In this document: in pieces, positions 23,131-42,268 of the stretch
How positions within the stretch are numbered: position 1 is the stretch's first letter
How the letters are laid out: every line of letters starts with the position of its first letter
Position numbers and translations under genes: made by a program
Assembly (NCBI GenBank): GCA_002721305.1
Contig: PBKA01000003.1
Coordinates: 1-64,000, forward strand
Direction: 5' to 3'
DNA from: Acidimicrobiaceae bacterium
GTDB taxonomy: Bacteria; Actinomycetota; Acidimicrobiia; Acidimicrobiales; Poriferisodalaceae
DNA: 64,000 nt
Notes under the pieces: generated by a model
The model's database searches: none
The model's input: the letters and a program-made list of their open reading frames with translations, nothing else
Told to the model about the DNA's origin: nothing

Positions 23131-24372
23131 CTACTGCTCGAGATCGACATCACCAGCCTCATCAATCCTGCTTGGGGGTCTTCTTTTCGTAAATCCCGGC
23201 CCGATAGCAGAGTCACCGTACTGCTCTCTTATACGATCTATAGCGCTCGAAAGCCGCCTCCAACCTGAATTTTGGGGCTCGGTGTCTACCAGAGTTAGCT
23301 GACGAGGCCCTGCCGGTCCCAAGCGACTTAGGCCAACTCCGAGCAGTCTCACACCCTGATCGAGGTCGAGTTGAGCAAGCAATTCGGTGGCCTTTTCAGC
23401 TATTTCGGGCAAGGTGTCTACAGGTTCTTCGACAGTTATCGATCTGGTTACATAGGACATGTCGGGACGTCGCACCTTTAGCTGGATAGTTCGGCCGGCG
23501 GTCCCTTGAGTTCGAGCACGCGCGGAAACAGCATCAGAAAGCCTGATAATTTCGCTTTCCAACACGTCCCTGGCATAAACGTCCGCGGGGAAAGTTTCCT
23601 CATGACTTATTGACTTTCGTTGTCGGTCAGAATCAACCCGGCGAACATCAATGCCTTTGCTGAGTTGGGAAAGATGAGCCCCATGCGAGACTCCGAGTGC
23701 GTCAATCAGCGCTTCCTCTGGGATCGCTGCCAACTCCCCCACGGTGGAAATTCCCATTGACCGTAACTTCTGAAGGGTGACCGTCCCTACACCCCATAAC
23801 GCTTCCACCGGGTGGGCCTCCAAGAAACTCTTCTGACTTTCCTGATGGACGACATATATACCAACTCCTGGCCGAACTCCTTCAGGGGTCAATTGAGGTT
23901 TTGCCGCCACTGAAGCCAATTTGGCAAGCAACTTTGAATTAGCGACCCCTACTGAACAATCGAGCCCAACGCTTTCATAGACATCGCTTCGCAGCTGCCA
24001 AGCAATCTCTTCGGAGCTTCCGAACAGCCTGTGGGCCCCTCCGACATCAAGAAATGCTTCGTCCAATGCAATGGGCTCTACGGCTGGTGTCACCGAGTGG
24101 AAGATCTGGTGAACCTGTCGAGAGACTTCTCTGTAACGAGAAAAATCTGATCGCACGAAAACGGCGTCGGGACATAGTTTTCTAGCGACGACACTGGACA
24201 TCGCTGATTTCACACCCATGGCGCGCGCCTCGTAGCTGGCGGAAGCAATCACACCCCGCTCAGAGTCGCCACCAACAACTACGGGTTTCCCGATGAGCGA
24301 GGGATCATTTTGCCGTTCAACCTCGACATAAAAAGCGTCCATGTCGACATGGAGAATTGATAGCTCACCCAT
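23131..24372 (-). CDS. dinB: DNA polymerase IV (Y-family)
   Basis: A 413-residue translesion polymerase. The palm motifs HVDMDAFYVEVE (with catalytic Asp and the FY steric gate) and ALDEAFLDVGG are intact, as are SYEARAMGVKSAM of the fingers and VGVANSKLLAKLAS. The thumb helix-hairpin-helix follows (ALWGVGTVTLQKLRSMGI), then the little-finger domain. No SOS-type palindrome GAAC-N4-GTTC is seen in the 56 bp upstream, so LexA control is not evident here. The tail has no clear clamp-binding peptide. Confidence 0.94.
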   Translation of the reverse strand: MGELSILHVDMDAFYVEVERQNDPSLIGKPVVVGGDSERGVIASASYEARAMGVKSAMSSVVARKLCPDAVFVRSDFSRYREVSRQVHQIFHSVTPAVEPIALDEAFLDVGGAHRLFGSSEEIAWQLRSDVYESVGLDCSVGVANSKLLAKLASVAAKPQLTPEGVRPGVGIYVVHQESQKSFLEAHPVEALWGVGTVTLQKLRSMGISTVGELAAIPEEALIDALGVSHGAHLSQLSKGIDVRRVDSDRQRKSISHEETFPADVYARDVLESEIIRLSDAVSARARTQGTAGRTIQLKVRRPDMSYVTRSITVEEPVDTLPEIAEKATELLAQLDLDQGVRLLGVGLSRLGPAGPRQLTLVDTEPQNSGWRRLSSAIDRIREQYGDSAIGPGFTKRRPPSRIDEAGDVDLEQ

Positions 24373-39681: not shown

Positions 39682-40566
39682 ATGGGGATGTTCGGCGACG
39701 AAGCAGATATTTGGGTAGGTCGCCAATACGGCCCGTACAGCATCACAGAGCTTTTAGGCCGTGGAACGGTAGCGCATGTCTATAAAGCGCTCTTACGAGA
39801 CGGAAGTGAAGTCGCGCTCAAGGTTTTGACGCCATTTGCTGAAGCCCGGCAGGAGATCCGTTCACTATTCGAACAAGAGTTCGAGCTCATGGTGCGGGTG
39901 AACCATCCCAACGTCCTTAAAGCGATGCAAGCCGGCGTAATTGCTGGGACTCATTACATCGAGATTGAGCCCATCATCGGAGAAACTCTTTGGGACAATG
40001 TGCAGTCCACCAAACAGATTGAGCTCGATGAAGTGATCGCTGTGATCCAACAAATGTGTTCCGCTCTAGATCACATCCACGAACACCAAATCGTGCATCG
40101 GGATGTCAAGCCATCGAACATCATGTTGGACGAGCCGGGAGAACGGGCCGTCCTCTTCGATTTCGGTTTGGCGCATAATCTCGATGGTCCACCCCCACCC
40201 GAAGGTCGGGTTTTCGGTTCTCCCATGTTCCTCGCGCCCGAACAAGCGGTCGGGGGTTATGTGGATGCAAGAACAGACCTTTACAGCTTGGGAGTCACCT
40301 TGTACCGCGTGGCCACGGGTGCTTCGCCTTTTTACGGTGAACGAAATGAACTTCTCCACGCACATTTGAAGCTGCCTCCGCCTGATCCGCGTGGCGCTGG
40401 TGTCGCTGAAGACCTGAGCGAGGTGATTCTCCGCTCTATGGCCAAAGAACCATCGGAGAGATTCCAAAGTGGCGCCGACTTCGCCGCAGCGTTGGCTACC
40501 GTCGAGATTCCCCGAGCTACGCCGCGTAAGCGTAGTTTTCTTAGTCGCATAGCTGGTCGTTCCTAG
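39682..40566 (+). CDS. Soluble serine/threonine protein kinase
   Basis: A 294-residue Hanks-type kinase without TM segment or PASTA domains. The Gly-rich loop GRGTVAHVYKA (26-36), ATP-binding Lys47 in VALKV, the catalytic HRDVKPSN (139-146), DFGLA (160-164) and APEQ are all present, so it should be active. The C-terminal 25 residues are basic. Substrates are unknown. The start may be ATG 39682 or 39688. Confidence 0.93.
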   Translation: MGMFGDEADIWVGRQYGPYSITELLGRGTVAHVYKALLRDGSEVALKVLTPFAEARQEIRSLFEQEFELMVRVNHPNVLKAMQAGVIAGTHYIEIEPIIGETLWDNVQSTKQIELDEVIAVIQQMCSALDHIHEHQIVHRDVKPSNIMLDEPGERAVLFDFGLAHNLDGPPPPEGRVFGSPMFLAPEQAVGGYVDARTDLYSLGVTLYRVATGASPFYGERNELLHAHLKLPPPDPRGAGVAEDLSEVILRSMAKEPSERFQSGADFAAALATVEIPRATPRKRSFLSRIAGRS

Positions 40567-40596: not shown

Positions 40597-40617
40597 CGAA
40601 CACTTGTTCGCTATATT
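40597..40617 (+). promoter_or_regulatory. LexA-type SOS box overlapping a -10 element
   Basis: CGAACACTTGTTCG (40597-40610) is a palindrome matching the Gram-positive SOS box GAAC-N4-GTTC. TATATT (40612-40617) follows directly and fits a -10 box. Transcription would start at about 40624-40625, on the first base of the GTG start codon, so the message should be leaderless and LexA-repressed. Confidence 0.8.
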
Positions 40618-40624
40618 CGTCTAA

Positions 40625-42268
40625 GTGTTCCAACAATCACTTGACGACCTGGGGACCCCTTTACATGAGGTGACTTTTTGCGCGCTTGACTTTGAAACTA
40701 CGGGTGGGCGTCGCGACAGCGACAGGATCACCGAGATTGGCGCTATCAAATACCGGGCTGGCGAACAAATCGGGACCTTTCAGACTCTCATAGACCCGGG
40801 TCGAGCTATTCCTCCGGAAATTACTGTTCTGACAGGAATCACAGCTTCAATGGTTTCCAGAGCGCCAAGAATTGAGCACGTTCTTCCCACTCTTTTGGAA
40901 TTTGTTGGAGATGCGGTCATCGTCGGACACAACGTCGGCTTTGACCTCGCCTTTCTTAATGCCGCCCTGCAGCGCTCCGGGAGAGATGTCTGGCAAGGAG
41001 CCAAGGTCGACACTCTCGCGGTAGCTCGCCGCCTTGTTCGCGATGACGTCCCGAACCACAAGCTGTCGACACTAGCCAAATATCTGCGCTTGCCTAATCA
41101 ACCGAGCCATCGAGCGTTGGATGACGCCAAAGCAACTGCTGACTTGCTTCACCGATTACTTGAACAGGCATCCGCTTTGGGCGTTTTGGGTTTGGATGAT
41201 TTGCAGCAACTTCCAAAAATGCAGCGACACCCTCAGGCGGTCAAGCTTCGGCTTACCGAGAACCTCCCGCGCTCAACTGGGGTTTACCGTTTCGTCGACG
41301 GGAGAGGGGAAGTCCTGTATGTCGGCAAAGCGGTCAACATAAGGTCGCGTGTGCGGTCATATTTTTCGAGTGATCGTCGGCGAAAAGTTGATCAACTGCT
41401 CCGAGAAACGCAGAGAATCGAACATACGGTTTGCGTCGGTCCGCTCCACGCAGAAGTCCTTGAATTGCGTCTGATTCAAGAACTCCGTCCTCGGTTTAAC
41501 CGGCGATCCAAGAACTGGTCGAAATATTCTTATGTGAAGCTCACTTTGCCTGATCGCTTTCCCCGATTGTCGATCGTAAGCGAACCCAAAGAGGACGGCG
41601 CCTTCTACCTTGGTCCGATTTCCTCTCGGAGAGCTGCCAGAGACATAGTGGACGCTATCGAAACCGTTGTACCGCTTCGTCGTTGCACTCAAAGGGTTCC
41701 GCGTAAAGCGCGAAGTGGGCCGTGTACCGCGGCCCAAATAGGTGTCAGTGTCTGTCCGTGTTCCGGTGGGATCAGCGAACACGCCTACGCCGCGATAGTG
41801 GATGAGGCAGTCTCCGCTCTAGAGAGCCATCCGGAACGTTTGCTGGGATCCTTGCGCGAGCGGATGCTCGACCTCGCAGGTCAACAACGTTTCGAAGAAG
41901 CGGCTGAAGTCCGTCGCCGCGCTGCTGCCTTGTCGGGGGCATTGCGACGTCACCGCCAAGTGGAGTCGCTTCGTTCCGCTGGTCGAATAGCTGTCGAAGC
42001 AGCTGGGCAAGGCGTCACCACGCTTGACCGCGGCCGCCTAGTCGAGGAACACGAAACGAAGGCCTTTAGTGCACCTCAGCGAAAACACGGTCTCGCCGTG
42101 GCAAGTAAAGAGGAAATCGATGAATTGTGGTGTGTTGCTAGCTGGCTTGAAAGCGAGGCGCACACATTACGACTCGTTCATTGTGATCACCCTCTATCAT
42201 CCCCCTACCCTTGCTTGGATGACTTTCGCGCGCGTAAAGGAGTGGTTCTGCAAAACAGCGGTAACTAG
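40625..42268 (+). CDS. DnaQ-like exonuclease fused to UvrC-type GIY-YIG nuclease
   Basis: A 547-residue DNA repair enzyme. An N-terminal DEDDh 3'-5' exonuclease (catalytic residues in ALDFETTG, VGHNVGFDLAFL and HRALDDAKA) is joined to a GIY-YIG domain (from GVYRF near 219, with LYVGKA). A UvrB-binding-like helix pair (LAGQQRFEEAAEVRRRAA, near 417-434) follows. The UvrC C-terminal RNase H-like nuclease and HhH are missing, so it resembles Cho plus an exonuclease. Such fusions occur in Actinobacteria. An SOS box sits just upstream. The start is GTG. Its stop overlaps that of the convergent gene within CTAG. Confidence 0.93.
   Translation: MFQQSLDDLGTPLHEVTFCALDFETTGGRRDSDRITEIGAIKYRAGEQIGTFQTLIDPGRAIPPEITVLTGITASMVSRAPRIEHVLPTLLEFVGDAVIVGHNVGFDLAFLNAALQRSGRDVWQGAKVDTLAVARRLVRDDVPNHKLSTLAKYLRLPNQPSHRALDDAKATADLLHRLLEQASALGVLGLDDLQQLPKMQRHPQAVKLRLTENLPRSTGVYRFVDGRGEVLYVGKAVNIRSRVRSYFSSDRRRKVDQLLRETQRIEHTVCVGPLHAEVLELRLIQELRPRFNRRSKNWSKYSYVKLTLPDRFPRLSIVSEPKEDGAFYLGPISSRRAARDIVDAIETVVPLRRCTQRVPRKARSGPCTAAQIGVSVCPCSGGISEHAYAAIVDEAVSALESHPERLLGSLRERMLDLAGQQRFEEAAEVRRRAAALSGALRRHRQVESLRSAGRIAVEAAGQGVTTLDRGRLVEEHETKAFSAPQRKHGLAVASKEEIDELWCVASWLESEAHTLRLVHCDHPLSSPYPCLDDFRARKGVVLQNSGN

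Follow-up and report, generated by a model that had tools for sequence, protein, structure and literature searches.

How is the gene for a fused exonuclease/GIY-YIG nuclease controlled in an uncultured actinobacterial lineage, and where does its message begin? The gene occupies positions 40625-42268, on the forward strand, of the 64,000-nucleotide stretch analysed here (the window), and the sequence directly before it is unusually compact. Read directly, positions 40597-40627 consist of CGAACACTTGTTCG, then CTATATTCGTCTAA, then GTG. The original prediction placed a LexA box beside a -10 element and a leaderless start at this site. As a sequence element it is confirmed as first described, and the interpretation given to it is supported overall. 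We put at about 85% the probability that 40597-40627 is a LexA-repressed promoter from which a leaderless mRNA for a Cho-like+Exo repair nuclease is made.

The element before the nuclease gene

The predicted LexA operator (SOS box), CGAACACTTGTTCG at 40597-40610 (forward strand), is an exact match to the palindrome CGAAC-N4-GTTCG. One base past it lies the -10 element TATATT (40612-40617), and 7 nt beyond this the GTG start codon (40625-40627), which doubles as the predicted transcription start. The box thus has the properties expected of an actinobacterial LexA-regulon member, being palindromic, abutting a promoter and being conserved there. No -35 element is visible at this promoter, and no Shine-Dalgarno word was found before GTG 40625. 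The codon immediately before the GTG, at 40622-40624, is an in-frame TAA, so that GTG 40625 is the earliest possible start in this frame. A -10 element 6-8 nt before the start, no Shine-Dalgarno word and no earlier in-frame start are the marks of a leaderless gene, and together they support a transcript that would begin on the G of GTG 40625.

A palindrome of this kind might arise by chance, and the window itself offers a reason to ask, as it holds a second exact box (39870-39883) that looks accidental, 727 nt upstream of the first and within the ORF of the adjoining kinase. Counts over the whole 1.94-Mb assembly (89% complete) gave 12 exact matches, and the reversed pattern matched once; with one mismatch allowed there were 148 against 71, and since that control is half as frequent as the signal, only the exact class is informative and we rely on exact matches together with conservation. 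Damage genes account for six of the 12, which stand at the promoter or start of lexA (two), imuA, dnaE2, ruvC and the Cho-like+Exo nuclease gene; the other six, including 39870, are by our reading inside ORFs.

Conservation settles the matter. Nuclease orthologues were sought in 39 genomes of the family, and 24 of these have a near-full-length copy, two have fragments (G001 and G038) and the other 13 yielded UvrC-type or other exonuclease matches only. The box, a TA-N3-T element and the GTG stand in register in 18 of the 24, and the layout is also present at the start of the G038 fragment. Among the other orthologues, one has its upstream region masked (L031), two have an exact box further upstream, at 132 nt (L034) and 126 nt (L039) from the aligned start, and three have no exact box within 400 nt upstream (L036-L038). 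A footprint was computed over 17 of the 18 in-register sequences; L035, whose gap is shorter by one base, was not included. The box arms reach a mean of 2.00 bits of information per column, the N4 spacer 1.53 and the -10 element 1.89, compared with 0.40 between -70 and -30, 0.97 for the gap and 1.52 for the codons that follow the start; the 17 sequences are mutually related, though their upstream DNA has diverged. All 17 keep the 40597 box and none keeps the one at 39870, which is therefore rejected as a second operator. With the layout held in register in 18 of 24 orthologues, a chance palindrome at 40597 is refuted, and we give it a negligible probability.

The operator and the LexA regulon

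A conserved palindrome need not be LexA's. Several dimeric repressors suit palindromes of this length, and the 40597 site could be bound by one other than LexA that has the same half-site. The company that the box keeps makes this very improbable. In this genome, lexA was identified by TIGR00498 (E 1.2e-67) and has four boxes or near-boxes upstream, together with a leader containing a Shine-Dalgarno-like stretch; the same exact box stands before lexA, imuA, dnaE2 and ruvC. No recA was found in this genome's incomplete assembly. Across the family recA is over the cut-off in 35 of 39 genomes, and the exact box was present upstream of it in all 30 family loci read, 128-254 nt before the profile start as measured from profile-match coordinates. 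A search for the same box near recA and lexA was the check proposed with the original prediction, and it succeeded for lexA in this genome and for recA in all 30 of those loci. These genes carry an identical sequence and are the set expected of LexA. The box also agrees with the Streptomyces venezuelae LexA motif, tCGAAC-N4-GNNCGa, in the part of the report available to us (PMC9380542).

From its occurrence at lexA, imuA, dnaE2 and ruvC, and at the recA of relatives, CGAAC-N4-GTTCG is the predicted LexA operator of the clade. By extension from sequence, we infer that LexA binds the 40597 box and that the nuclease gene is induced by damage. The window contains one more gene of interest in this respect, dinB (a Y-family polymerase; 23131-24372, minus strand), with its PF00817 match at 23911-24348 (E 6.7e-53). 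It had been described as lacking the box, and indeed no LexA box with two or fewer mismatches occurs between 23107 and 26152. Unlike dinB, the translesion genes imuA and dnaE2, located elsewhere in the genome, do carry it.

The start of the message and its counterparts elsewhere

If LexA controls the gene, does its message really begin at the GTG? A Ser/Thr protein kinase gene lies directly upstream on the same strand (39682-40566) and stops 58 nt before the GTG, and in most orthologues the C-terminal end of this kinase can be recognised upstream of the nuclease gene. The operator could therefore be a working one while the main transcript comes from upstream, for example together with the kinase gene, with the LexA-controlled start being secondary or not leaderless. 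The arrangement of the clade's own lexA and recA genes, which have leaders, speaks for such a leadered message. It is nevertheless unlikely, as the -10 element and its 7-nt distance to the GTG are conserved while the surrounding DNA is not, the Shine-Dalgarno word is absent, and imuA and dnaE2 share this layout, as do more distant lineages, where in-frame starts follow. A start at the GTG is thus the reading we retain.

Leaderless starts as such are hardly exceptional in this genome. In the window, 9 of 55 ORFs have a TA-N3-T positioned 5-8 nt ahead of their first start, compared with 46 of 3682 background RTG triplets, and leaderless genes therefore seem common here and not special to SOS. 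The full layout, taken as GAACN4GTTC-N{1,5}-TANNNT-N{5,8}-RTG and scanned in the 39 family genomes, gave 89 matches against 11 for the reversed pattern (summed rows), with 19 of the 89 in a single genome, G005. Thirty pattern loci were read, and they comprise 12 imuA, 6 dnaE2, 5 Cho-like+Exo nuclease genes, 2 genes that look by eye like DUF222/HNH and 5 that are unexplained; gene names in relatives rest on likeness to profile-tested proteins of this genome. The dnaE2 of this genome has the box and a TTGACA, and its -10 is unclear. As a separate observation, G005 has about ten copies of a gene start (L050 and others) with a LexA-like box and a GTAGTGT element ahead of it, and the products look by eye like DUF222/HNH (13E12-type) proteins.

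At ruvC the three parts are fused still further. In 24 of the 30 family loci shown (L186-L215), the predicted operator of ruvC encloses the start codon and follows immediately on a TA-N3-T, reading CGAACCTGTGTTCG or similar with GTG or ATG as codon 1. The other six loci, all from genus g7, read CGTACTGATGTTCG, with one mismatch. This genome's own ruvC operator is found at positions 64237-64250 of contig C19 (L205). Within the class, 59 of 296 genomes have the strict form of the pattern, spread over 34 of 149 genera, with no reversed matches. In a draw of 246 genomes from the phylum it appeared in 6, all among the 22 belonging to the same class, and in none of the 224 drawn from outside that class.

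How far the arrangement extends beyond the family was examined for the nuclease gene in named relatives, represented by the best 80 of 580 confirmed loci and scored for an exact box within 200 nt. It was present in 10 of 14 Acidimicrobiia, 0 of 56 Actinomycetes, 1 of 2 Nitriliruptoria and 4 of 8 loci without a class, counts that include one Acidimicrobiia locus (L091) and one Actinomycetes locus (L143) with less than 200 nt of upstream sequence. Allowing one mismatch brings in 5 of the 56 Actinomycetes among the same best 80 of 580. At 10 of these 15 exact-box loci, a -10-like hexamer is followed by an in-frame start at 6-9 nt, in a test that allowed C as the first base of the -10 and is thus laxer than TA-N3-T. 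In 7 of the 15 (again among the best 80 of 580) the box is bordered upstream by a TTGAC and takes up the whole interval from -35 to -10; this suggests how LexA would keep polymerase out. A quick tree with 92 rows groups 58 of them, 55 from Actinomycetes, in a clade without the box (SH-aLRT 99), and box presence needs 7 changes, as opposed to 21.3 for shuffled labels. A gain in Acidimicrobiia and a loss in Actinomycetes are not distinguished by this tree. Two assemblies in the set, titled 'Bifidobacterium breve' (L079) and 'Acidobacteria bacterium' (L092), carry gene copies of the Acidimicrobiia or a related type, and their titles are probably wrong.

A broader proposal can be built on these genes, for which we would offer even odds. 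The SOS effectors of the Acidimicrobiia (Cho-like+Exo, imuA, ruvC and probably dnaE2) would be leaderless genes under LexA control, each with its operator, -10 and start codon merged into one short unit, while the regulators lexA and recA keep their leaders; at ruvC, where the operator contains the start codon, it would also constrain the first codons of the gene. If this is true, the SOS effector proteins depend on leaderless translation, and their kinetics could differ from those of LexA and RecA.

The nuclease, its proposed role and known systems

The gene product had been called a Cho-like exonuclease/GIY-YIG fusion, and the profile matches agree. The 547-residue protein scores 544.5 bits against NF005907 (NCBIfam PRK07883), above the curated cut-off of 454, and so belongs to that family. 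A DEDDh exonuclease domain spans residues 20-175 (40682-41149; PF00929, E 1.3e-32) and a GIY-YIG nuclease domain residues 219-290 (41279-41494; PF01541, E 5.4e-6), the latter also matching UvrC N-terminal structures. A possible UVR motif of the UvrB-binding type, at residues 404-437 (41834-41935), scored 19.1 bits with PF02151, below the cut-off of 21.5. Among 10 aligned relatives, D22, E24, D107, H162 and D167 of the exonuclease domain are invariant, and we take these to be the catalytic residues of the DEDDh domain; the residues taken to be catalytic in the GIY-YIG domain are invariant as well. Four cysteines (C354, C367, C377 and C379) are likewise invariant in this alignment. The profile matches of the nuclease include no UvrC C-terminal domain, and at another genomic location (C6:278470-279225) there is a distinct UvrC-type match. 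Exonuclease and GIY-YIG domains, four cysteines and neither a UvrC C-terminal nuclease nor an HhH together make up the Cho-like+Exo architecture. The exonuclease domain rules out an orthodox Cho of the Escherichia coli type, though the nuclease may work like Cho.

RecA-triggered self-cleavage is established for LexA in general, and with it the following sequence of events can be proposed. In undamaged cells, a LexA dimer would sit on the box, covering the stretch just upstream of the -10, and RNA polymerase would be excluded. Upon damage, RecA on single-stranded DNA would trigger the self-cleavage of LexA. Polymerase would then start on or beside the G of GTG 40625, and translation would proceed without a leader, a step for which conservation provides support. 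The nuclease itself would use its GIY-YIG half to nick at the lesion and its DEDDh half to resect from there, as a back-up to UvrABC during SOS. Such a division of labour has been proposed for the mycobacterial relative, in which the exonuclease would digest the damaged strand from the GIY-YIG nick (cited in the consulted part of a GIY-YIG survey, PMC1564403).

The findings give the DEDD/GIY-YIG fusion nuclease a regulatory context, as a predicted damage gene in Acidimicrobiia and, by the box test, not in Actinomycetes. For an uncultured lineage they also supply a short list of predicted leaderless SOS genes that can be put to the test, along with a ruvC that has its start codon within the predicted LexA operator. 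In the open-licence literature we found no report of SOS control of the Cho-like+Exo nuclease, nor of a LexA operator around the ruvC start codon.

Set against known systems, the protein itself brings nothing unfamiliar. E. coli Cho (YdjQ), which is under SOS control, is likewise a GIY-YIG nuclease related to the N-terminal half of UvrC. It differs in having no exonuclease domain and in its Cho-specific C-terminus (PMC1564403, in part), and a LexA box is recorded for Salmonella ydjQ (PMC8072944, in part). Closer is the Cho-like+Exo subfamily of Mycobacterium and other Actinobacteria, described in the same part of PMC1564403, which shares the exonuclease N-terminal to a UvrC-type GIY-YIG domain and the cysteine-rich part; the subfamily also has a UVR motif, for which residues 404-437 are the candidate here. 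We see no difference in the protein, and what is new here is the predicted SOS control in Acidimicrobiia.

LexA control and leaderless genes are both already known in actinobacteria. What we take to be the Mycobacterium tuberculosis relative of the nuclease is Rv2191. This name, Rv2191, does not occur in PMC8151990, and the Cho-like+Exo gene is not named as a regulon member for M. tuberculosis or S. venezuelae in the sections to hand of PMC9380542 and PMC8151990, a difference from the present case. Actinomycetes differ too in that their copies of the nuclease gene are without the exact box (0/56 among the best 80 of 580 loci). Shared with the M. tuberculosis and S. venezuelae regulons are the type of operator and the members lexA, recA, dnaE2 and ruvC, and imuA is a member in M. 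tuberculosis (PMC9380542 and PMC8151990, same sections); lexA of M. tuberculosis is itself leaderless, according to an excerpt of PMC2897130. The DdrO/RDRM system of Deinococcus differs in its repressor, motif and mode of inactivation. As described in part of PMC5552922, it nevertheless resembles the present arrangement in that its damage genes carry the repressor's sites within their promoters or very close to them, and the genus abounds in leaderless mRNAs.
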